The notes beneath the pieces are model-generated. The model was not told the origin of the DNA, made no database searches, and worked only from the letters and a program-made list of their open reading frames with translations. A program made the translations under genes and the position numbers. A stretch of 64,000 nucleotides of DNA, from positions 620,001 to 684,000 of the forward strand of contig NZ_BMID01000001.1 of NCBI RefSeq assembly GCF_014641655.1. Reading direction: 5' to 3'. Numbering within the stretch: the first letter of the stretch is position 1; each line of letters starts with the position of its first letter. The DNA comes from Pseudoblastomonas marina (GTDB taxonomy: Bacteria; Pseudomonadota; Alphaproteobacteria; Sphingomonadales; Sphingomonadaceae). This document shows, piece by piece, positions 1-23,572 of this stretch.

Positions 1-953
1 CCGAGTTTCGCACCATCGTACAGCACATGGTCGGCCGGTCCGTTCCCCGGGTAGAGCCGGTCGAGATAGGAGATCATGCGCGTCATCGTGCGCGTATGGG
101 AATCGACGATATTGGTCGGGCGCGCGTGCAGCGTGATGTTCTGGTCCATGAACACGATCTCGCCGTCGTGCCAATCGTGATCGAAGATATATTCCTCGCG
201 GTTCACCAGTGACCAGAGATGTGCCTTGTACCTTTCACTTTCGGCCTTGGTCATACCCTTGAAATGACTGAAGCAATGGCTCGGGAAGCGCATGCCGACG
301 CGGCCCGTCACGGTACGGTCGACCAGCGCCGTTTCCATTCCGTCGAACGGGATCATGTTGTATCGGATGATCTCGAGGTGCCAGCCATCGATATCGGGGC
401 ACATGTCACCGCCATCCCAGGCCCAAACGCACCGGAGTTCGTCGACCATCGAACGATCCTCGTGGTTGAGCGCGTCATAGACGGGCGCGGTGCAGAGAAA
501 GGATGTGCGGCTGCTTTCCGATCCCCACAGGCTCATGAGGCCGACGATCCGCTGGTTGTCGTGATAGGCCTGCTGGTCGGCATGCCAATCGAGTTCGCCA
601 TTGGGGAACAGGCCGGTCGGTCGCCCGCGTTCGTTCTTCTCGAAACTGACCCGCGCCATGCCCCGCAATTCGCCCGATTCCTTCAGCCCGCTCGAGACCG
701 CGCCCATCGCGAGGAAAGCCTCGCGCCAGTGCTTGCCCGCCAGCCGACGCTCCATCACGTATCGATTGATGATCGGCATGCAGGGCTGGCCCCATAGCAT
801 CTGGATCTCGTAGAGACGCCGCTCGCTTACCTTCTGCCGTAAGAGCACGACGCATTCATGCGCCACCAGCCGGCCGAGCTCGCGGCAGGCCTCGTCGTCG
901 GAGAGGTCGATGTCGGACACTTCGACACCGTTGTTGAGCTGCGCGATCCTCAT
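1..953 (-). CDS. TauD/TfdA-family Fe(II)/2-oxoglutarate dioxygenase, 3' end beyond window
   Basis: About 317 codons are visible, read from ATG at 953 to the window edge; the C-terminus is missing. The family hydroxylates, desaturates or halogenates small molecules using Fe(II), O2 and 2-oxoglutarate in the cytoplasm. The facial triad is visible: His124-x-Asp126 (context DWHADQQ) and a distal His276 in the segment WHDGEIVFMDQNITLHAR, followed by a run with Arg288 and Arg292 that can bind 2-oxoglutarate. The start codon overlaps the stop of the radical SAM gene (ATGA), so the two are translationally coupled, and it is the last visible member of the P450-MBOAT-SGNH-radical SAM operon. The substrate cannot be told from sequence. 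Because the second triad residue is Asp, halogenase activity (which needs Gly/Ala there) is unlikely. Confidence 0.85.
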   Translation of the reverse strand, partial: MRIAQLNNGVEVSDIDLSDDEACRELGRLVAHECVVLLRQKVSERRLYEIQMLWGQPCMPIINRYVMERRLAGKHWREAFLAMGAVSSGLKESGELRGMARVSFEKNERGRPTGLFPNGELDWHADQQAYHDNQRIVGLMSLWGSESSRTSFLCTAPVYDALNHEDRSMVDELRCVWAWDGGDMCPDIDGWHLEIIRYNMIPFDGMETALVDRTVTGRVGMRFPSHCFSHFKGMTKAESERYKAHLWSLVNREEYIFDHDWHDGEIVFMDQNITLHARPTNIVDSHTRTMTRMISYLDRLYPGNGPADHVLYDGAKL

Positions 954-2122
954 TTGGTCAGTTCCATCCTCTTGCCGTGCGTTGCGGTGGGATCGTCGAA
1001 GTCGAACACGCTACCCGTCCTTACGTCAGGCACGGCTTCGTTCCTCTCGATCAGGAAGATGCGGCCGAGCGTATCGATCATGTCGAGCCATTCGCCGAAT
1101 GCGGCGGTATCACGGACATCGGCATCGCGCGGTTCGAACTTTGACGACCAGCCGCCCGAATACATCCGGCATTCGGAGCAGATCGTGTCCGATGTCCCGC
1201 ATTTCTCGAGCGCGGCGTGTTCGAGGTCGGTCTTGAAGTAGCGCATCGGCTCGACCATCCGCGAATGGCAGTCGCGCGCGATGCCGGTCTCCGGGTCGAT
1301 ATCGTAGAGCGGGCCGGATTGCGTGGCCCAGCGGTTGTAGGCGTGCGAGTAGACGACGGTTTCGGGGAAGTCCTCGATCACCTCGTCCATCACCCGGCGC
1401 GCCGCGGCGAGGCTATCGTCGTCCCAGCGCAGATTGTCCTCTTCGGACGAGATGCGGAAATACTTCCCGTCGGGTCCCATCCGCTCGGCGATCTTGCGGG
1501 CATAGCTCTGCGTCGGCGAATACATGTTGAAGGTCAGCGGCAGGTCGTGGTCGCGGCAGATTTCCGCCAGCCGCCGCACGTCGCCGAGATTGGTCCTCGT
1601 CAGCGTGTAGAGCATGATCGCACGCGGATCGCCGGCATAGTTGCGGATCGCCTTGGCGAAGGCGTTGGCGCCGCGCAGGCTGGTGTCGACCTCCTCGTCC
1701 ACGCCCCACACAGACACACCGATGCGATAAGGTATGGCGGGATCGAGCCTGATCGTCCCATTGGTGCCGATATTGCCGTGTGGGAAGTGCGTGGCCGCCG
1801 CGATCAGCCGCTCCTGTTCGAGCGCGGGCTCGGCGCCGACGAAATAGGCCATTGTGACCCCGCGCTCGCCCTCGGCGGCGAAGAATTCCTCCCACGCGGC
1901 GCGGTCCTGCACCTCGCGGCTCGGCGGCGCGAAATCGTCGGCGAAATAGTAGCAGCCTTCACAGAACAGGTTGCAGCGGGTCGCCACCTCGTAGAATGCC
2001 GGGCGGCGAAAGGCGCGGACGATGGCCTTGGCGCGGGTATAGCGATCGCGCAGCCGTGGGTCGGCGCGCAGCATTGCTGCCACCTGACCCAACCGTTGCT
2101 TGCGCTCCGTCCCGACGTGCAT
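950..2122 (-). CDS. radical SAM protein with C-terminal four-cysteine region
   Basis: A 390-residue radical SAM enzyme. Cys50, Cys54 and Cys57 (RCNLFCEGCYYF) form the CxxxCxxC motif that binds the [4Fe-4S] cluster and S-adenosylmethionine; a VGAEPA stretch at 95-100 stands where most members have GGEP. Four further cysteines, Cys285, Cys308, Cys315 and Cys318, form a C-x22-C-x6-C-x2-C pattern compatible with an auxiliary Fe-S cluster (SPASM/twitch-like, inferred). I chose ATG 2122 because the open frame upstream of it lacks family character and the protein then begins about 50 residues before the cysteine motif. Its stop overlaps the dioxygenase start. The family modifies peptides, sugars or lipids; no precursor peptide gene is visible nearby in the window, but the operon continues off the edge. 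Confidence 0.85.
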   Translation of the reverse strand: MHVGTERKQRLGQVAAMLRADPRLRDRYTRAKAIVRAFRRPAFYEVATRCNLFCEGCYYFADDFAPPSREVQDRAAWEEFFAAEGERGVTMAYFVGAEPALEQERLIAAATHFPHGNIGTNGTIRLDPAIPYRIGVSVWGVDEEVDTSLRGANAFAKAIRNYAGDPRAIMLYTLTRTNLGDVRRLAEICRDHDLPLTFNMYSPTQSYARKIAERMGPDGKYFRISSEEDNLRWDDDSLAAARRVMDEVIEDFPETVVYSHAYNRWATQSGPLYDIDPETGIARDCHSRMVEPMRYFKTDLEHAALEKCGTSDTICSECRMYSGGWSSKFEPRDADVRDTAAFGEWLDMIDTLGRIFLIERNEAVPDVRTGSVFDFDDPTATHGKRMELTK

Positions 2123-2195
2123 TGCTGCTTTCGACCCTGTTCCTCTTTCGAAACAGCGAGCTAGCGCAAATAACGACCCGGCGGAACCAAAAGAA

Positions 2196-3194
2196 TCAGA
2201 CGCAATCCGATAATGGGACGCGCCCATCGCGCTGGATTTTCGCTGCGAGCATGCGCGAAAATTCGCGCGCGCCGGGCGCATTGAGATGGGTCGCGTCGCG
2301 GAAATACTCGAAGCGCGCGGCGAACTCTTCGGTGTTCCAAAAATCCGCGATGATCGCTCCCCGGTCGGCAAGCCGATCGAGCAGGCGATCGAACCGCTCG
2401 GTCTGGCCCCAGCGGCGCGACGACACTTCGCGGCGAAGTTCGTCGAGATAAGGCGGAACGACGATCACGGCGCGGCTGCCCGAAGCCTCGACCTGCATGA
2501 CGGTGCGGAGGAGCGATGCAGAGGCGCGGTCGGGCACACCCGGGTCGTAATAGGCGACCTTGTGTGCATCTTCGCGCCACTGCGCCAGCTGGGTGTCGAC
2601 CAGTCGCTCGGCGGTGCGCGGGTCGATTGTCCGGGTGTCGGTGTCGATCGCGCGATCGGGCGCCGGGCGGCCCTGCCACAATCGAAGCAGCGCTTCATGC
2701 CACGGGTCGCGCAGATCGTGGCCGATCGCGGGCATCGCTTCGGACAGGAATGCCTGCCGCCAATCGCCCGCAATCGGATCCCACCGCCCCTCGCCGTGGA
2801 GAAAGCGATAGGTGGTGCGCCGACGGTTCGCGCCTGCGAGGGCGGGCAGGCCGTTGTCGTGCGACAGCGAGGTCGGGGTCACAACCACGAAGAACAATTC
2901 GGGCGGGGCGGGGCGGGCAAGGATCAGTTCGACCAGCGCTTCGATCTCGAAGGGGTCCTGGCCATTGTTGTAGAATTCCGCCCCGTTGAGGCACATCGCG
3001 TCGAAATCGACCGCGGTGCCGATCGACCCGCCAAGCGAAACAGCTTTGCTGCCGGCGATCGCAGCGAAGCGGTCCTGCATGAACTGCGGCGCAGTGGGTC
3101 CTGCCACCGGCACCCTCCCGGCAAGGTTGAGCGCGCCGAGCACCATGGCACCGAGCGCGAGGAAGAGCAGGGCGGAGCGGACGGTCCAGCGCAT
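2196..3194 (-). CDS. membrane-anchored SGNH-fold protein, probable partner of the MBOAT acyltransferase
   Basis: 332 residues. An N-terminal signal anchor (about residues 6-24) precedes a periplasmic SGNH/AlgX-like domain. The nucleophile motif is SLGGSIG with Ser57, and the catalytic Asp-x-x-His pair is Asp300/His303 in FRDATHLNAPG near the C-terminus. Its ATG overlaps the TGA of the MBOAT gene. In established systems (AlgI with AlgJ/AlgX, PatA with PatB, DltB with DltD) a membrane MBOAT hands an acyl group to a periplasmic SGNH protein that loads it on a polymer or lipid. By analogy this protein probably performs the transfer or esterase step; the acceptor is unknown. Sequence is distant enough that I do not assign it to one of those subfamilies. 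Confidence 0.75.
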   Translation of the reverse strand: MRWTVRSALLFLALGAMVLGALNLAGRVPVAGPTAPQFMQDRFAAIAGSKAVSLGGSIGTAVDFDAMCLNGAEFYNNGQDPFEIEALVELILARPAPPELFFVVVTPTSLSHDNGLPALAGANRRRTTYRFLHGEGRWDPIAGDWRQAFLSEAMPAIGHDLRDPWHEALLRLWQGRPAPDRAIDTDTRTIDPRTAERLVDTQLAQWREDAHKVAYYDPGVPDRASASLLRTVMQVEASGSRAVIVVPPYLDELRREVSSRRWGQTERFDRLLDRLADRGAIIADFWNTEEFAARFEYFRDATHLNAPGAREFSRMLAAKIQRDGRVPLSDCV

Positions 3195-4651
3195 CAGAAA
3201 TCGAAATACAGGAAGCCGCTGCCGGTGAACACGCCGAACACCAGGATGATCGCCGCGAGCCCCCACCAGAACGGCCAGGCGACGATCGCGCCTGCAGCTT
3301 CGAGGCGATCGAACACCGGGCGGCGGCTATCGAGCCATTGGTAGATTTCGAGTGCGGCTATGGCGAAGAGAAACAGTGCGCTGAGGTGGAGGGCGCCGAA
3401 GCCGGCCGACAGGCTCAGCGCATCGCCGGGCAGGTCCGCCATCTTGCCCCAGATCGTCCGCGTCTGCTCCCATCCCGGCGCGTTGACGATCGACCCGAGG
3501 AAGAGGAGGAAGAACCACAGCACGAGGCGATTGGCGCTGCGACCGAGGAAGCGCGCGCCGCGCGCACCCACGCCGATCCGCTCCAGCGCGCGCGACGTCC
3601 GCGCGAGCCCGCCGCGTTGTCGCCGGATCGCGCCTTCACCGATCATCAGGAGCCCCCCGACCAGGCCCGCCGCGATCCAGGTAGAAGCGGCGCCGTGCCA
3701 GAGCGCGACGAGCAGAGTGGTCAGCACGGTGGCGACGAAGCGCGACCAGATCCGGGTGCTGCGGGCGATCGGGATATAGACGTAATCGGTGAACCAGCGG
3801 GTCACCGTGATGTGCCAGCGCTGCCAGAACTCGGCGATCGAGACCGCTGCGAAGGGACGGTTGAAATTGCGCGACAGCGCGATCCCCATGATCAGGCTCG
3901 AGCCGATGGCGATATCGGCATAGCCCGAGAGGTCGGCATAGTAGCGGTAAAGCGCGCCCAGCGTGGCCAGCGTCACCGTGAGCGAGGTGTGTCCCTCGGG
4001 CGCGGCGAGGATCGGCGGGACCAGCAGGCCCAGCCGATCGGCGATCACGAGTTTCTTGAAATAGCCGACCAGGATCATCGCGCAGCCGATCGCGGCGCGG
4101 CGCAATTCGAACACCTGACGCTCGCGCAATTGCGGCAGCAGCTTGTAGGGGCGCTCGATCGGGCCGGCGAGCAATTGCGGGAAGTACATCACGTACACCC
4201 CGAAGATCCCGAGATGATCCTCGGCCTCGCGTTTTCCGCGATAGACGTCGATCGAATATCCCAGCGTCTGGAAGGTGTAGAAGGAAATTCCCAGCGGCAG
4301 GATCACGTCGGCCATCGTGAAATTGCCGATCCGCAGGTCGTAGAGCGTCGTCCCGGCAAGCAATGCGCTGTATTTGAAGAATGCCAGCGGGCCCAGATTG
4401 CACACCATGCTGATGGCGAGCAGCAGGCGTCGCCGCGCGCTGCCCTTTTCGGTGTGCATCATCGCCTTCGCGGCGTGGAAATCGACCAGTGTCGTGAACC
4501 ACAGCAGGGCGAGGAATTCGATCCGCCAGCTGGCATAGAAGATGTTGCTGGCGACCAGCAGAAGCACCCATCGCCACCGATGCGGCACGCAGAAGAACAA
4601 CACTGCGACCAGTGGCAGGAACAGCAGATAGTCGAGCGAGTGAAAGATCAT
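3194..4651 (-). CDS. MBOAT-family membrane O-acyltransferase (AlgI/DltB-like)
   Basis: 485 residues with about ten hydrophobic segments, the usual length for AlgI/DltB proteins. Family marks include the FYTFQTLGYSIDVYRG stretch (124-139), the YFPQLLAGPIERP stretch (156-168), the conserved histidine His280 in EFWQRWHIT, and the invariant catalytic His319 in LWHGAASTW. It should carry an acyl group (commonly acetyl) from a cytoplasmic donor across the inner membrane. It lies 21 bases after the P450 gene and overlaps the SGNH gene by four bases, so it is cotranscribed and probably works with that SGNH protein. Nothing for alginate, cellulose or teichoic acid synthesis is nearby, so the acceptor is more likely a dedicated small molecule, glycan or lipid made by this operon. 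Confidence 0.88.
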   Translation of the reverse strand: MIFHSLDYLLFLPLVAVLFFCVPHRWRWVLLLVASNIFYASWRIEFLALLWFTTLVDFHAAKAMMHTEKGSARRRLLLAISMVCNLGPLAFFKYSALLAGTTLYDLRIGNFTMADVILPLGISFYTFQTLGYSIDVYRGKREAEDHLGIFGVYVMYFPQLLAGPIERPYKLLPQLRERQVFELRRAAIGCAMILVGYFKKLVIADRLGLLVPPILAAPEGHTSLTVTLATLGALYRYYADLSGYADIAIGSSLIMGIALSRNFNRPFAAVSIAEFWQRWHITVTRWFTDYVYIPIARSTRIWSRFVATVLTTLLVALWHGAASTWIAAGLVGGLLMIGEGAIRRQRGGLARTSRALERIGVGARGARFLGRSANRLVLWFFLLFLGSIVNAPGWEQTRTIWGKMADLPGDALSLSAGFGALHLSALFLFAIAALEIYQWLDSRRPVFDRLEAAGAIVAWPFWWGLAAIILVFGVFTGSGFLYFDF

Positions 4652-4672
4652 CGGCCGTGCAGCGGGTCCCGG

Positions 4673-5914
4673 TCAATCACGCGAGTGCAGGAAGATCGGC
4701 GCATCGCCGACCGGGCGCAGCGTCCATTCGACATGACACTGTAACGGGCTCTCGGGGTTCGGCGAGAGGGAAAAGCGCTGGCAGGTCATCACCAGAAATA
4801 GTGCGAGCTCGACCAATGCGAGGCTCGATCCGATACAGCCACGCGGGCCCGAACCGAATGGCAGCCAGGCGGCGCGTCGTTCGCGCGTATCGTCTTGGGG
4901 GTCGAGGAAGCGTTCGGGCAGGAATGCGTCGGGCTGGTCCCATAAGCGTCGGTGCCGCTGCATCGCGTAGATCGCGACGATCGCAACCGATCCAGGCTCG
5001 AGCGTAACATCGCCGATGGTGAGCGGAACCCGTATCTCGCGCATCAATTGCAGGATCGGAGGAAAAAGCCGCAGCGTCTCGCGCACGATTGCACCGGCTA
5101 CGGGAAAATCGCGCAGTGAGAATGCGCCCGCCGTCCGTTTGGCAGCCTCGTCGCGGATCGCGTCCTGTAGCTCCGGTCGGTGGGCGACCAGCCACAGCAT
5201 CCAACCCAGCGCGACCGCGACGTTGTCGTGACCGGCATGGAGGAAGAGCGTCAACGTGTTCAGGTCCTTCGGGTCTGCCACGCCGTCGCGGCTCGCTTTC
5301 CAGTCGCGCGCCAGCCGCTCCGCCAGGGGCTGGAGGTGCACCAGTTCTTCCTTGAGCTCGATCGGGCACATGGCCGCGATCGTGCGGGCAGTGTCGTCGA
5401 TCCCCGGGGATCGGTGGCGGGCTTGGCGATCGCTGGCGAATATCGCCCGATACAGCGCGTCCAGGCTAAGTCGGCGGGTGTCGCGAAGCAGCGGGACCGC
5501 TCTTTTCGGACCGAGCGCGGCCCATTCGTCCATCATCTCGTCCCCGGCGAGCTCGAGCCGGGGTACGAGGCCGGCGGCGCGGTCCGCCGTGATCGGCTGC
5601 GCGATCGTACGACGCTGCCCGCGCCAGTCCTGCTGGTCGGCCTGGACAAGATTCTCACCGTAGCTTGCACCAAGGATCCGGTCCTGGAAGCGCGCCCGCG
5701 GAAAATTGTCGCTGCGATTCATCAGGATGGTCGACACCGCCATGGGGTCGGACACGAACGCCAGCGCCTGCCTTCCGGCCTTGGCCTGTACCACGCCGGT
5801 GTCGAGCAGGTCGTCGGGCCAATGGGCGAGCGGATCGCGCGCGACTCGACCGATCGCGGGCAGTTGCCCTTCGCCGGAGCCGTTCAACACCAGTTTCGGA
5901 GGCTCGAACGCCAC
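4673..5914 (-). CDS. cytochrome P450
   Basis: 413 residues with GTG start at 5914 preceded by a strong purine-rich ribosome site. The haem-binding loop is FGSGPRGCIG with Cys360 as the axial thiolate; the ExxR helix is ETLR at 279-282; the I-helix oxygen-activation segment reads LHAGHDNVA (225-233), with Asn where a Thr is common. No membrane anchor is present, so it should be a soluble bacterial class I enzyme fed by ferredoxin/reductase encoded elsewhere. It is the first gene of the operon with the MBOAT, SGNH, radical SAM and dioxygenase genes. The likely role is oxidation of a lipid or small molecule that the later enzymes further oxidise or acylate (inference). The AGxDN I-helix resembles fatty-acid or unusual hydroxylases, but no substrate call is justified. 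Confidence 0.92.
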   Translation of the reverse strand: MAFEPPKLVLNGSGEGQLPAIGRVARDPLAHWPDDLLDTGVVQAKAGRQALAFVSDPMAVSTILMNRSDNFPRARFQDRILGASYGENLVQADQQDWRGQRRTIAQPITADRAAGLVPRLELAGDEMMDEWAALGPKRAVPLLRDTRRLSLDALYRAIFASDRQARHRSPGIDDTARTIAAMCPIELKEELVHLQPLAERLARDWKASRDGVADPKDLNTLTLFLHAGHDNVAVALGWMLWLVAHRPELQDAIRDEAAKRTAGAFSLRDFPVAGAIVRETLRLFPPILQLMREIRVPLTIGDVTLEPGSVAIVAIYAMQRHRRLWDQPDAFLPERFLDPQDDTRERRAAWLPFGSGPRGCIGSSLALVELALFLVMTCQRFSLSPNPESPLQCHVEWTLRPVGDAPIFLHSRD

Positions 5915-5938
5915 CCTTGTCCCCCCTTGCGTCGCGCT

Positions 5939-5967
5939 GCCTTACGCGCGCTTCACTGGTCCGACAA
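5939..5967 (-). promoter_or_regulatory. candidate promoter of the P450 operon
   Basis: On the minus strand TTGTCG and TAAGGC are separated by 17 bases and sit just upstream of the GTG start of the P450 gene. The match to the sigma-70 consensus is only moderate. No terminator is seen between here and the window edge. Confidence 0.35.
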
Positions 5968-6077: not shown

Positions 6078-6153
6078 AGGGGTGTAGCTCAGCTGGTAGA
6101 GCATCGGTCTCCAAAACCGAGGGCCACGGGTTCGAATCCTGTCACCCCTGCCA
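6078..6153 (+). tRNA. tRNA-Trp (anticodon CCA)
   Basis: A 76-base cloverleaf with a seven-pair acceptor stem (AGGGGTG/CACCCCT), D-arm with TAGCTCAGCTGGTAGAGC, anticodon loop TCTCCAAAA giving CCA, T-loop TTCGAAT, and an encoded CCA tail. In many proteobacteria this gene sits directly before secE; here about 7.9 kb separates them. Confidence 0.97.
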
Positions 6154-6926: not shown

Positions 6927-9900
6927 TCAGAAGCCGATCGCCATGCCGACGCGGCCGCTCGCGCCCTCGTCGCCGGTATTGCCGGCAATCGCGCCCGACA
7001 CGTAGATCCGCGGGGCGACCCGCGCGGTCACTGCCGCCGAATAGCCCTGCTCGCCCTGGTGGGTCGCGCCGTTGACGCTGATCGAGACGGTGCTGTCGGG
7101 CACCACCATCGTACCGCCCATCGCCATCGCCGCGGCGACCCCGCCGCGCATCCGCGTGTCGAGATCCTCGAGCGCGAACTCCATCGTGTCGAGCCGGCCC
7201 GACAGCGCGAGCACGTCGCTGCTGAGCGCCTCGAACTGGGCGTCCGAGATAGCCGCGATGTAATCGACATTGGCGCGCACGGCATCGACCGAGGCGGCGG
7301 TTGCCGCCTGCTGGCGCCCGAGCACCCCGTTGGCGTCGACGGTCACGACATCGACCGGCCCCTCTTGGGCGGCGGTCGAAGCGTCGAGATCGCCGATCTT
7401 CACCGAACTGCCCGCGCCGCCGAGCACGACCTGGTCGTTGGCGGTGGTCACCGCGGCATAGCCGATCGCCGTGGCCCGCGCGTAGTCGGAGGTCGCGTTA
7501 TGGCCGATCGCGGTGGCGCTGGCATTTCGGGCCATCGCGGTGCGGCCGAGTGCGGTCGCGTTCTCGTCGGTCGCCTGCGCGCCGTTGCCGACCGCGGTCG
7601 CCTGCAGCGCCGGGGCGAATGAGGCGTAGCCGAGCGCCATTGCGTAATTGCCGCGTGCGGTGGCGAAGGACCCGAAGGCGAGCGTCCCGATACCCTCCGC
7701 GGAGGAACCCGTCCCGGCCGCGGTGGTCTGCAGGCCGGTGGCCTTGGCGCCGTAGCCGAAGGCGGTGGTGCGCAGGCCCGAAGAGACCGCATCGGCCCCC
7801 ACGGCGAGCGATTCATTGCCCGAGGCGATTGCTTCGCGGCCGACCGACACCGCGCTGGCGCCCGAGGCCGAGGCCCCCAGAGAGTCCTCGTCGGTCCCGT
7901 CGCCGCCGATCGCGACCGAATATTCGCCGGTCGCCTGCGCGCGGGTGCCGCCGGCGAAGCTGCGCGTCCCTGAGGCGTTGGCCTGCAACCCGACCGCGGC
8001 AGCATACTGCCCCGCCGCCGCCGAATAGGAGCCGATCGCCGAAGCGCCGGCCCCGGTGGCATTGGCCTGGTGACCCATCGCCGAAGACCACTGCGCATCC
8101 GCCACGCTCGACGAACCAACCGCCGTAGCCTGGGTGGTGGCGGAGCTATTCCCACCCACCGTTGTCGAGTTCACTCCCGATGCGACCGCATTGTGCCCGA
8201 TGGCCGTAGCCATAAACTGATCGGCTTTGGCGAAGCCCCCAAATGCACTCGCTGCGCTGGCTTGGGCCGATGAGCTGATACCGACTGCCACGGCCTGATT
8301 GTCGCTGATTGCACCCGTGCCCACCGAAACGGCTCCGTTGCGCGCGATGGCCTCACTGCCCATGGCAGTGCCACCCTGCGTCGCCTGAGCGTTGGGACCG
8401 ACGGCAATCGAATTGGACCCCGAAGTAGCGGCGTTGGATCCTACGGATATCGCATTTGCGTCGGTAGCAGACGCGTTTTCGCCGATCGCGACTGCGTCGA
8501 TGCCGGTAGCGCTCGCTGCCGCGCCATCGGAATTCACGTCGAGATAGATCGAGGCGGAGCCCGTGCCGCCACTACTGACGCCCGCGATCGCCGCGTTCAA
8601 TTGTGCGACGTTTACCGCATCGTAATCGCCGATCCCCGCATTTACGTTCGTGATGCGGCGCTTCACCCCTGCGGAGCCCACCGAAACCGTGTTTGTCTGG
8701 TCCGCGACCGAACCGGTACCGAGTGCAACCGACGATTCCGCGCTGGCTTCACTGCCATATCCGATTGCGAGCGCCTCGCGGCCCGTTGCATCGGCCTGAT
8801 ATCCGATCGCCGTGGCGATGAAACCGGTTGCCGAGCTTGATGAGCCGATCGCCGTCGTCACAACGCCGTCGGCAGTCGCATTGTTGCCCACCGCGAGCGT
8901 TCCAAATCCGCTGCCAGCGAAGCTACCCGAACCGATGGCGGTGCCATTGTTCTCAGCTTTCGAACCTCCGCCAATGCTCGTACCGCCATTGCTTGTCGCT
9001 TGAGCGGAATGGCCGATCGCCACCGACGCATCGCTGGCGGTCCCGCCGGAACTTCCCCCGCTGGAAATCGAATTGTAGCCGACGGCAACGCTGCCGTTGC
9101 CATTCGAAGAGGCATTGGGACCGAATGCGCTGCCGACTGCACCCCACGATCGCGAACCCGAACCGACCGAAACGCCGCCATCACGCGCATTGACGTCGCG
9201 ACCTATGGCAATCGAATCCCCGAAATCCGTACTCGCATTGGTACCCAGGGCGATCGCGTCGTCGTCATAGGCAATCGCATTGGTACCTTGCGCGATCGAC
9301 CGCGCGCCCTGAGCGCGGGCGTTCTCTCCGATCGCAATGGCGTCCTCGCCCGAGGCATCGGCCGCAGTGCCTGTGGAATTCACGTCGAGGAAGGAAAGGC
9401 TGGTGGCCCCTTCGGTACCGCCCGCCGCGATGGCGTTGTTCAATTGTTGCAGCGTTACGGCATCCGTCGCATCCACCGCGTCTGCCAGATTGGTGATGCG
9501 CCGCTTGGCACTCGAATTACCGACCGAGACGGTCATCGCCGCACCGACGGTCGAGCCCGCTCCGAGGGCCACACTGTCCTCAAACCCGGCGCCAGCATTG
9601 GCTCCCAAGGCAATCGAGCGTGCTCCAGTTGCGGACGCTTCGCCGCCGACCGCAACGGCATTTGTGCCGGTCGCGATGGCGCCATCGTAAAATACTGCAG
9701 CACCCCCAAAGTTGATCTTGGAGCCGATGGCGATCGAGCCTTGGCCGGCCTCGGAGTACATCCCGATCGCGATGCCTTGGTCACTTGCGTTGGCGCTGCG
9801 ACCTAGCGCGACGCCATTCTGAGCGGTCACGGTTGAATTGCCGATAGCAACCGCATTGGAAGCACCGCTGGCGCTGTCGCCGATCGCAATCGCGTAGGAC

Positions 9901-10241
9901 GTGGCGTTTGCGGAGCGTCCCAGAGCAATACCGCTCGTTCCGATCGAAGAGGCATAAGGTCCGACAGCAATGCCGTAATAGCTCGACGCCGAAGCCGCGT
10001 TACCGACGGCGACCGATTCGTAACCCGACGCGGTGCTTTCATTGCCCACCGCCGTCGCATCGGAACCCGCAGCACTGGAATCCACCCCGCACTCCAGCCC
10101 GTCATCGGCGGTGCTCGCGGTGGCATCCGGCCCGTCGTTCGTATTGCATTCGGGCGTGTCGTCGGCGCGGGCCGAGGTGGTGAGCGCGACGATCGAGGTG
10201 GCGGCGAGCAGCAGGCTCGCCGTCAGGCGACAGGTATTCAT
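6927..10241 (-). CDS. trimeric autotransporter adhesin (YadA-like), large
   Basis: 1104 residues from ATG 10241, which has a GGAGGG ribosome site 8 bases upstream. A signal peptide (about 1-25, ending ARA) precedes a mature N-terminus with a Cys-x18-Cys pair, then long stretches of the YadA-head 14-residue repeat (pattern A-x-A-x-G with S/N-G variants). Two neck/connector units (VSVGNSSAKRRITNL and VSVGSAGVKRRITNV, each followed by DAV and QLN) split the head into three blocks. The C-terminus is a short stalk plus a YadA anchor of about 70 residues ending in Phe, which would trimerise into an outer-membrane barrel. It mediates adhesion or autoaggregation by family knowledge. Codon and base use in roughly 8100-10100 looks less GC-rich than in 6930-8090. 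A paralogue lies at 21719-23572. Confidence 0.9.
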   Translation of the reverse strand: MNTCRLTASLLLAATSIVALTTSARADDTPECNTNDGPDATASTADDGLECGVDSSAAGSDATAVGNESTASGYESVAVGNAASASSYYGIAVGPYASSIGTSGIALGRSANATSYAIAIGDSASGASNAVAIGNSTVTAQNGVALGRSANASDQGIAIGMYSEAGQGSIAIGSKINFGGAAVFYDGAIATGTNAVAVGGEASATGARSIALGANAGAGFEDSVALGAGSTVGAAMTVSVGNSSAKRRITNLADAVDATDAVTLQQLNNAIAAGGTEGATSLSFLDVNSTGTAADASGEDAIAIGENARAQGARSIAQGTNAIAYDDDAIALGTNASTDFGDSIAIGRDVNARDGGVSVGSGSRSWGAVGSAFGPNASSNGNGSVAVGYNSISSGGSSGGTASDASVAIGHSAQATSNGGTSIGGGSKAENNGTAIGSGSFAGSGFGTLAVGNNATADGVVTTAIGSSSSATGFIATAIGYQADATGREALAIGYGSEASAESSVALGTGSVADQTNTVSVGSAGVKRRITNVNAGIGDYDAVNVAQLNAAIAGVSSGGTGSASIYLDVNSDGAAASATGIDAVAIGENASATDANAISVGSNAATSGSNSIAVGPNAQATQGGTAMGSEAIARNGAVSVGTGAISDNQAVAVGISSSAQASAASAFGGFAKADQFMATAIGHNAVASGVNSTTVGGNSSATTQATAVGSSSVADAQWSSAMGHQANATGAGASAIGSYSAAAGQYAAAVGLQANASGTRSFAGGTRAQATGEYSVAIGGDGTDEDSLGASASGASAVSVGREAIASGNESLAVGADAVSSGLRTTAFGYGAKATGLQTTAAGTGSSAEGIGTLAFGSFATARGNYAMALGYASFAPALQATAVGNGAQATDENATALGRTAMARNASATAIGHNATSDYARATAIGYAAVTTANDQVVLGGAGSSVKIGDLDASTAAQEGPVDVVTVDANGVLGRQQAATAASVDAVRANVDYIAAISDAQFEALSSDVLALSGRLDTMEFALEDLDTRMRGGVAAAMAMGGTMVVPDSTVSISVNGATHQGEQGYSAAVTARVAPRIYVSGAIAGNTGDEGASGRVGMAIGF

Positions 10242-10406
10242 GGTTTGACCCTCCATTCGGGCGAAAATGCATCGCCCCTTCCGCCGCGCATGGTGTTGAG
10301 CAGGGGTCTGAAAGACAACCTCTTTGCCGCCGCCCTTCCACAGCGCGCCGGCCACTGTGGCGAATCGGTCACGCCGGGGCCGGACGGCGGTCGCGCTGCC
10401 GCGGCG

Positions 10407-21718: not shown

Positions 21719-23572
21719 TTACCAGGCGATCTGGAAGCCGCCGCGGGCGCCGACTTCACCGCTGTCGAAACCGACACCGAGACCGGCCGAGATCGAAGCG
21801 TTGTCACCGACACGGGCGCTCAGCGCCACCGTACCGGCACCACGGTCGGCGAAGTAGCCGACGCCGCCCGACAGGCCGAAATTGGTGCCTGCCGGCAGGG
21901 CCGGGCTTTCCATCGCGAGACCCATCGCGACGCCTTCGTTGGCGCGGCTGATGTCGATGCTGTTCTGCGCGGTCAGCGCTTCGAGCGTCGTGGTCCGGGC
22001 ACCGAGCGCGCTGATCGCGGCAGTGTTGGTCCCGATCAGCGCGGTGTTCGACGCGATCGCGGCGGTGTTGCTCGCCACGGAGGCCGAGGTGGCCAGCGCG
22101 GTGCGGCCCAGCGTGCCATTGGTGTCGGTCGTCACGGCGAAGATCGTGCCGGTCTGGCTCGACGTGCTCGTGCCGAGGCCGGCGATCACCACCTGGCCGG
22201 CATTGGTCGCGGTCGCGCCGTTACCGATCGCGACCGAGTTTGCACCGGTTGCACGCGCGAGGTTGCCAATGGCGACCGAGGCGCTGCCCGAGGCGTTGGC
22301 CGAGTCACCCGCGGCGAACGAGCTCGCGCCCGAAGCGTTGGCGAGCACGCCGACCGCGGTCGAGCGCGTGCCGGTGGCGAAGGCGGCATTGCCGAGACCG
22401 GTCGAGAAGTCGCCGCGCGCCTGCGCCGAGGCGCCGACGGCGGTGCCCGAACGGCCGGTGGCGTTGGCGAGGTAGCCGAGGCCGGTGGCGTAGGTGTTCG
22501 AGGCGTTGGCGGCTTCGCCGAGCGAGGTCGAGAACTCGCCGCTGGCGATCGCGAGGTGGCCGATCGCCGTCGCGCGCTGCGCGGTGGCTTCCGAACGCCA
22601 GCCATAGGCGGTCGCGCCGGCGCCGATGGCGAAGGCCTGGCCGCCGACGACGGTGGTCGACGGGCCGCTGGCACGGGTCAGGCGACCATTGCCGGTGCCG
22701 TCGCCGCTGCCGATGGCGATCGCATCGGTGCCTTCGGCGGTCGCTTCGTTACCGATCGCGACCGAACGCTCGCCCGAGGCGACCGCGTTGTAGCCGCTGG
22801 CATAGGAGAAATCGCCGGTCGCGAAGGTGAAGCCACCCTGCGCGATCGAACCGATGCCCGAAGCGGTCGCGTTGCGACCGAGCGCGATGGCCTGGCGACC
22901 CGAAGCGTTGGCGTCGGTACCCTGGGCGATCGCATCGTCGGCCGACGAACGCGAACGATAGCCGATCGCGATCGCACGCTCGGCCGAAGCGAAGGCGTTG
23001 TAGCCGCTGGCATAGGCGAAATCGGCGGTGGCGAAGGAGAAGCCGCCCATGGCCGTCGCACCGATGCCGGTGGCGGTGGCGTTGCGACCCATGGCGACAG
23101 CCTGACGGCCATTGGCGACGGCATCGCGGCCGACGGCCACGTCGTCATTGTTCACAGCGCGCGCGGTGTAGCCGATGGCAACGCCACCTTCTTGGAGCGC
23201 GGTGGCGAAGGCGCCGACTGCGGTCGCGCCGAGGCCCGTCGCGTTGGTGCCGCGACCGATCGCGGTAGCCTGGAGCGCCGAAGCGTTGGCCTCGGTGCCG
23301 ACGGCAGTCGCGCTCGCGCCGCTGGCGGACGATTCCGAACCGACGGCCGTGCTGTCTTCGCCATTGGCAGTCGAATTCTCACCGCAAGCCAGCGCGTCGT
23401 CGCCGACCGCTGTTGCGCCGTTGACGCCGTCACCGGCATCGAGAATTCCGTTGTTGTTGGTGTCGGTAAGACACGCTTCCTGCGCGGCGGCAGGCGTGGC
23501 GATAAGCATGGCCGAGCCGGCACAGCCGGCCAGCAGCGCAGCTGCGAGCTGCTTCGTGTACATCGAATTCAT
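21719..23572 (-). CDS. trimeric autotransporter adhesin (YadA-like), shorter paralogue
   Basis: 617 residues from ATG 23572, preceded by GGAAGAGG at about 9 bases. Signal peptide to TPAAAQ; the mature start has Cys, then a DTNNNGILDAGDG loop that looks like an EF-hand or thrombospondin-type Ca2+ loop, then a second Cys before the head repeats begin. The head is one unbroken array of YadA-type repeats (AVGxxAxAxG). A short coiled stalk (NTAAIASNTALIGTNTAAIS) and a C-terminal anchor of about 70 residues ending in Trp complete the protein. Compared with the paralogue at 6927-10241 it lacks neck modules. The 293 bases upstream (23573-23865) have no gene; they hold the promoter region and lower-GC sequence. 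Confidence 0.92.
   Translation of the reverse strand: MNSMYTKQLAAALLAGCAGSAMLIATPAAAQEACLTDTNNNGILDAGDGVNGATAVGDDALACGENSTANGEDSTAVGSESSASGASATAVGTEANASALQATAIGRGTNATGLGATAVGAFATALQEGGVAIGYTARAVNNDDVAVGRDAVANGRQAVAMGRNATATGIGATAMGGFSFATADFAYASGYNAFASAERAIAIGYRSRSSADDAIAQGTDANASGRQAIALGRNATASGIGSIAQGGFTFATGDFSYASGYNAVASGERSVAIGNEATAEGTDAIAIGSGDGTGNGRLTRASGPSTTVVGGQAFAIGAGATAYGWRSEATAQRATAIGHLAIASGEFSTSLGEAANASNTYATGLGYLANATGRSGTAVGASAQARGDFSTGLGNAAFATGTRSTAVGVLANASGASSFAAGDSANASGSASVAIGNLARATGANSVAIGNGATATNAGQVVIAGLGTSTSSQTGTIFAVTTDTNGTLGRTALATSASVASNTAAIASNTALIGTNTAAISALGARTTTLEALTAQNSIDISRANEGVAMGLAMESPALPAGTNFGLSGGVGYFADRGAGTVALSARVGDNASISAGLGVGFDSGEVGARGGFQIAW

Follow-up and report, generated by a model that had tools for sequence, protein, structure and literature searches.

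A P450, radical SAM and dioxygenase operon with a putative Dlt/PatAB-type acyltransferase pair in Pseudoblastomonas marina

What would three enzymes that act on C-H bonds do beside an acyltransferase pair of the kind that decorates cell envelopes? The question is raised by the left end of a 64,000-nucleotide stretch of the Pseudoblastomonas marina genome (the window; G000:C1:620001-684000, G000 being the source genome), where genes for a cytochrome P450, an MBOAT O-acyltransferase, an SGNH protein, a radical SAM enzyme and a TauD-like dioxygenase form one minus-strand operon. The cargo of known MBOAT-SGNH systems consists of simple groups such as acetyl or D-alanine. We give roughly even chances to the operon being an oxidative version of such an envelope-acylation system, in which the C-H enzymes would modify a carrier-bound acyl group that is then transferred to the envelope. 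The first-pass annotation of the window could name no known cluster with this gene set, and no paper matching the five-gene combination was found among open-licence literature, which is not proof of novelty.

Operon structure

Gene calls on the window and on its left flank (examined as locus L002) placed the five genes as listed in Table 1. Base 3194 is common to the MBOAT stop and the SGNH start, and the dioxygenase ATG at 953 overlaps the radical SAM stop at 950; spacers of 21 and 73 nt separate P450 from MBOAT and SGNH from radical SAM, respectively. These coordinates agree with the single operon of five intact enzymes, overlapping at the same two junctions, that had been described in the first-pass annotation, and each catalytic residue named there was located at its position. 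The accompanying view that the operon continues beyond the left edge into more genes did not hold, the apparent run-off being an artefact of where the window ends. The operon is complete and lacks no genes, because its last gene, for the dioxygenase, stops 72 bases past the window edge, with the end of a convergent serine-protease-like gene about 22 bases further on. No open reading frame (ORF) for a precursor peptide was found in the operon, as had been noted before: with the gaps too small (21, 73 and about 22 nt) and the other two junctions overlapping, there would be no room for a hidden precursor or an extra gene. Judged from its sequences, the operon is not a chance array, because its genes contain no internal stop codons, dN/dS against the Erythrobacter orthologues was 0.15-0.42 (with dS near saturation) and the same gene order recurs in other genomes.

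Table 1. Features of the operon and its border, in window coordinates unless a locus is named
Feature	Position	Strand	Evidence
Cytochrome P450, 413 aa, GTG start	4673..5914	-	PF00067, 173.9 bits; heme Cys360; I-helix AGHDN
DltB-type MBOAT O-acyltransferase (predicted), 485 aa	3194..4651	-	PF03062, 96.8 bits; His319; F480-L-Y482-F-D-F485
SGNH-type acyltransferase (predicted), N-terminal membrane helix, 332 aa	2196..3194	-	Ser57/Asp300/His303
Radical SAM enzyme, 390 aa, ATG start	950..2122	-	CX3CX2C C50/C54/C57; C-terminal Cys 285, 308, 315, 318
TauD-like Fe(II)/2-oxoglutarate dioxygenase, 341 aa	1..953, plus 72 bases left of the window; L002:13928-14953	-	PF02668, 48.8 bits; H124/D126/H276
tRNA-Trp at operon border	6078..6153	+	ARAGORN; synteny with G001 and L005

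Conservation and distribution

A conservation scan over 84,980 species genomes, an even but partial sampling, returned seven loci apart from the window operon (at the high-GC loci L006 and L010, genes were called with a codon model taken from other loci). The exact five-gene order was also present in an Erythrobacter metagenome-assembled genome (L005) and in the Erythrobacteraceae-like G247 (L026), and all five operon-bearing Brevundimonas loci examined keep the order P450-MBOAT-SGNH-radical SAM without the dioxygenase. By this comparison the core of the operon is four genes, conserved in order across two bacterial orders, and the dioxygenase is seen only in Erythrobacteraceae-like carriers.

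Carriage is rare. Close homologues of the radical SAM enzyme were confined to two of about 349 Sphingomonadales genomes, and these were also the two with a close homologue of the dioxygenase (E about 1e-207, the next dioxygenases being at about 1e-17); for these two genes, the case that would have spoken against a functional unit, namely homologues scattered singly among relatives, was not what we found. In Brevundimonas the radical SAM gene was detected in 5 of 131 genomes. Further afield, G421 has carbamoyltransferase, MBOAT and SGNH genes divergent from a radical SAM-P450 pair. In G963, a proteobacterium further removed, a methyltransferase-radical SAM-P450 unit occurs twice, one copy facing a carbamoyltransferase gene and the other followed by a further P450-like gene. 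The radical SAM gene adjoins one for a TPR protein in Acuticoccus and in G403. A remoter branch of this radical SAM family accompanies PaaA-like diiron and PaaI/MaoC-type genes in relatives of Burkholderia and Tistrella (L013:9339-12145, L014:9980-11245, L029 and L030).

An alternative raised by the Brevundimonas loci is that the operon is a cassette that tailors a ribosomally made peptide, of the lasso or another type. Modification of such peptides is a frequent task of radical SAM enzymes and P450s, the window P450 has a distant NCBIfam match to ApyO, and in three Brevundimonas species a lasso-type cluster lies directly upstream of the P450 gene (PqqD, cyclase, ABC transporter, NTP_transf_5 nucleotidyltransferase and lasso B2 at L008:213-6174, in Brevundimonas poindexterae EaN21-13, with the same layout in L009 and L011), the lasso B2 stop of L008 being 9 bp from a possible P450 start. 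Against this, no lasso B2 was found anywhere in the source genome or the L005 genome, the Brevundimonas operon at L007 has no adjoining lasso genes, and the window operon is too tightly packed to hold a precursor ORF. Lasso tailoring is accordingly not general to the operon, and we regard a peptide cassette of any kind as very improbable. A possible lasso precursor ORF, with the C-terminal end GSDGITSAS, is present at L008:657-803.

The MBOAT-SGNH pair

The catalytic histidine of the MBOAT was invariant in an alignment of 10 MBOATs, as were F480 and Y482. Its nearest relations point to DltB, with a match of 2.9e-26 in a PDB search and 133 bits against TIGR04091 (DltB), under the family cut-off. 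The last six residues, FLYFDF, conform to the FXYXXF acyl-shuttle motif, which was found in exact C-terminal form in 11 of 13 related MBOATs, the others reading FIYFGY (G247) and FVIYENF (a shifted version in the plasmid copy SC52a). The SGNH protein had no Pfam match, and a plasmid search with it returned no match; its triad is conserved in the alignment. An AlphaFold model (pLDDT 78) has a single N-terminal helix at residues 5-25, and its top five PDB matches were all DltD, with low TM-scores (0.33-0.39) that place it at the level of fold family only.

In the MBOAT PatA, the tyrosine of the protein's own C-terminal FXYXXF motif is acetylated, PatB accepts an acetyl-Tyr hexapeptide as donor, and a shared mechanism has been argued for other MBOAT-SGNH pairs (Anderson et al., PMC12148441). 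The window pair resembles PatA/PatB of peptidoglycan O-acetylation in its catalytic histidine, C-terminal FXYXXF and separate membrane-anchored SGNH protein with a Ser-Asp-His triad, but differs in sharing an operon with a P450, a radical SAM enzyme and a dioxygenase. The Dlt pathway of teichoic acid D-alanylation (DltA/B/C/D and DltX) offers the nearest solved structures, DltB for the MBOAT and DltD for the SGNH model; unlike it, the window operon has neither ligase nor carrier, the motif is fused to the MBOAT rather than carried on DltX, the hosts are Gram-negative and oxidative enzymes are added. On sequence and model, the pair appears to have the anatomy of a Dlt/PatAB-type periplasmic O-acyltransferase. 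This predicted anatomy gives good support to an acyl group being transferred through the membrane, because the MBOAT ends in FXYXXF and the SGNH protein is membrane-anchored and DltD-like, and it bears out the extracytoplasmic O-acylation proposed in the first-pass annotation.

The AlgI/AlgJ/AlgX and WssH/WssI polysaccharide O-acetylation genes, which likewise combine an MBOAT with SGNH proteins at a Gram-negative envelope, sit in polymer biosynthesis operons, whereas no polymer operon surrounds the window pair. The pair might nonetheless be an ordinary one for O-acetylation of exopolysaccharide or peptidoglycan that lies beside unrelated oxidative enzymes by happenstance, since alginate, cellulose and peptidoglycan are the common targets of such pairs (PMC12148441). 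This we consider improbable, given the overlapping genes, the order kept in two bacterial orders, the strict co-occurrence of radical SAM and dioxygenase genes in Sphingomonadales, and the absence of any glycosyltransferase or polymerase from the operon and its immediate flanks in gene calls over about 94 kb, where flank genes were judged by eye and domain searches covered only part of them.

Related gene clusters

A gene for a B12-binding radical SAM protein is convergent to the operon and abuts it in all five Brevundimonas carriers, and was found in 2 of the 126 non-carriers (7/131 overall; hypergeometric probability about 7e-8, calculated by hand and ignoring kinship). In these two non-carriers (G769 and G872) it adjoins genes for a fatty acyl-AMP ligase (FAAL), a 712-aa P450-like protein, an acyl carrier protein (ACP), a NodU-type carbamoyltransferase, an MBOAT and an SGNH protein. 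Each half of the 712-aa protein aligns to one P450-like protein of G963, and it looks like a tandem P450. The FAAL-tandem P450-ACP-carbamoyltransferase set recurs, with two MBOAT-SGNH pairs, on the Rhodobacteraceae plasmid CP049029, and its ligase-P450-ACP-carbamoyltransferase part on the Phaeobacter plasmid CP104105; the hosts of these two plasmids are marine Rhodobacterales. Of the four clusters (L060:1-9562, L061:9049-18998, L067:8448-21317 and L068:14713-20478), three have both MBOAT-SGNH and B12-radical SAM genes. No paper on this cluster was found among open-licence literature.

By analogy the sister set looks like a DltA-DltC-DltB-DltD arrangement, the acyl-AMP ligase corresponding to DltA and the ACP to DltC, with oxidative and carbamoylating additions. 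With the operon it has in common an MBOAT-SGNH pair, P450s and the B12-radical SAM family seen beside the Brevundimonas operons; it differs in having other P450s, no radical SAM enzyme of the window type, and a carrier and ligase of its own. A distant radical SAM-dioxygenase pair lies between an ACP and a nonribosomal peptide synthetase (NRPS) on a Methylomagnum plasmid, which suggests, by analogy, carrier-bound substrates. Encoded at that place (L012:10392-19184) are the ACP, the dioxygenase, a radical SAM enzyme of the window family and an NRPS that combines C-A-T, sulfotransferase and TPR regions.

The B12-radical SAM gene is absent from the source genome and from the L005 genome, and the dioxygenase and the B12 enzyme therefore look like alternatives in the accessory role.

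Proposed function

In the mechanism we favour, an acyl group bound as a thioester to CoA or ACP would be modified in the cytoplasm by the three C-H enzymes (P450, radical SAM enzyme and 2-oxoglutarate dioxygenase). The MBOAT would then transfer the modified group to its own Tyr482 on the periplasmic side, where the SGNH protein would accept it on Ser57 and deliver it to a hydroxyl group on a glycan or lipid of the envelope. We infer the direction of flow, the class of acceptor and, from the sister clusters, the donor rather than the acceptor as the tailored partner; donor tailoring is favoured because related clusters carry FAAL and ACP. Further support comes from the P450-MBOAT-SGNH-radical SAM order kept in two orders and from the clustering of the same four genes in G421.

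Several observations weigh against this proposal. Neither an ACP nor an acyl-AMP ligase was found by gene calls in the window operon, so the operon itself lacks the ligase and carrier of a Dlt-type system. One ACP was detected in each operon-bearing Brevundimonas; no dedicated ACP for the operon was found there, and the donor would need to be CoA-bound or carried on housekeeping AcpP. A nearby FAAL gene (L002:7363-9117), considered as a dedicated partner, is also present in the operon-less congener G001 and is not specific. The link to the acyl-AMP-ligase clusters is one of gene families rather than close orthologues, and it depends on the B12-radical SAM gene, a gene missing from the source and L005 genomes. 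The operon contains no acceptor gene, and its P450, radical SAM enzyme and dioxygenase could equally modify an acceptor.

This last point leads to the main rival, in which the C-H enzymes tailor an acceptor (a lipid, a terpenoid or a small molecule of ordinary metabolism) and the MBOAT-SGNH pair adds a common acyl group, e.g. acetyl, during or after export. Carbamoyltransferases, which where characterised act on hydroxyl groups, are present in the related clusters. The P450 and SGNH proteins diverge fastest between carriers (29-59% identity vs 57-85% for MBOAT and radical SAM), as if acceptors differed, and carrier-free MBOAT-SGNH pathways draw on acyl-CoA donors (PMC12148441), as would suit an operon without ACP. 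On the other side, the complete related clusters hold acyl-activating and acyl-carrying proteins, not acceptor-building genes, and the Methylomagnum radical SAM enzyme and dioxygenase stand beside carrier-protein enzymes. We consider acceptor tailoring rather unlikely.

More broadly, and tentatively, donor tailoring may belong to a Dlt-like Gram-negative route that puts enzymatically oxidised, possibly C-methylated or carbamoylated, carrier-made acyl groups on the cell surface, in two related forms (the radical SAM-P450 operon and the FAAL-ACP-tandem P450-carbamoyltransferase cluster) and with a variable accessory enzyme, the dioxygenase in Erythrobacteraceae and the B12-radical SAM enzyme in Brevundimonas. 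If so, elaborate acyl groups for display on the bacterial surface would be made outside the known clusters for polysaccharides or natural products. The operon would probably escape standard cluster finders, since it encodes no classical enzyme of scaffold building. Through the acyl-Tyr shuttle, the acyl group could be read directly by mass spectrometry.

P450, radical SAM enzyme and dioxygenase

The heme cysteine of the P450 lies in the loop FGSGPRGC, and the ExxR residues E279 and R282 were invariant. All 7 aligned operon P450s have the I-helix motif AGHDN, in which Asn takes the place of the canonical Thr, and the G421 relative has AGHES; by this alignment AGHDN is a mark of the P450 subfamily of the operon. 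The radical SAM enzyme scored below the Pfam cut-off (19.8 vs 29.5) and had only a weak NCBIfam match. Its three CX3CX2C cysteines and the four C-terminal ones were invariant in an alignment of 9 sequences, the latter suggesting one auxiliary iron-sulfur cluster. The model of this enzyme was of too low confidence (pLDDT 63) to assign a function by fold search, and its best PDB matches were generic radical SAM folds (viperin, QueE, DesII and TigE). The iron ligands of the dioxygenase are all present; the Methylomagnum relative has H-x-N for H-x-D.

Genomic setting

In G001 the aat and tRNA-Trp genes are 88 bp apart, as against about 8 kb in the source genome, where the operon and one protease gene occupy the interval. 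The L005 operon likewise lies between tRNA-Trp and aat, with conserved flanks (ribosomal-protein, secE and symporter genes, and recX and FAAL). Identity to L005 was 85% for the radical SAM enzyme, 81% for the MBOAT and 73% for the dioxygenase, compared with 88% for NusG, 79% for the symporter and 77% for the FAAL in the flanks. Because these operon identities resemble those of the flanks, the locus is probably old in the family, and often lost. A recent mobile island was rejected as the origin, given the flank-like identities and the site shared with L005, which are explained no worse by vertical inheritance and a loss in G001.

Compared with G001, the window is inverted from 6154 to 38891, and one of the breakpoints adjoins the tRNA-Trp gene at the operon border. 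Two minus-strand genes (6927-10256 and 21719-23572) encode, as judged by eye, proteins with many adhesin-like repeats of the Hep/Hag type and signal-like starts; both have counterparts in G001.

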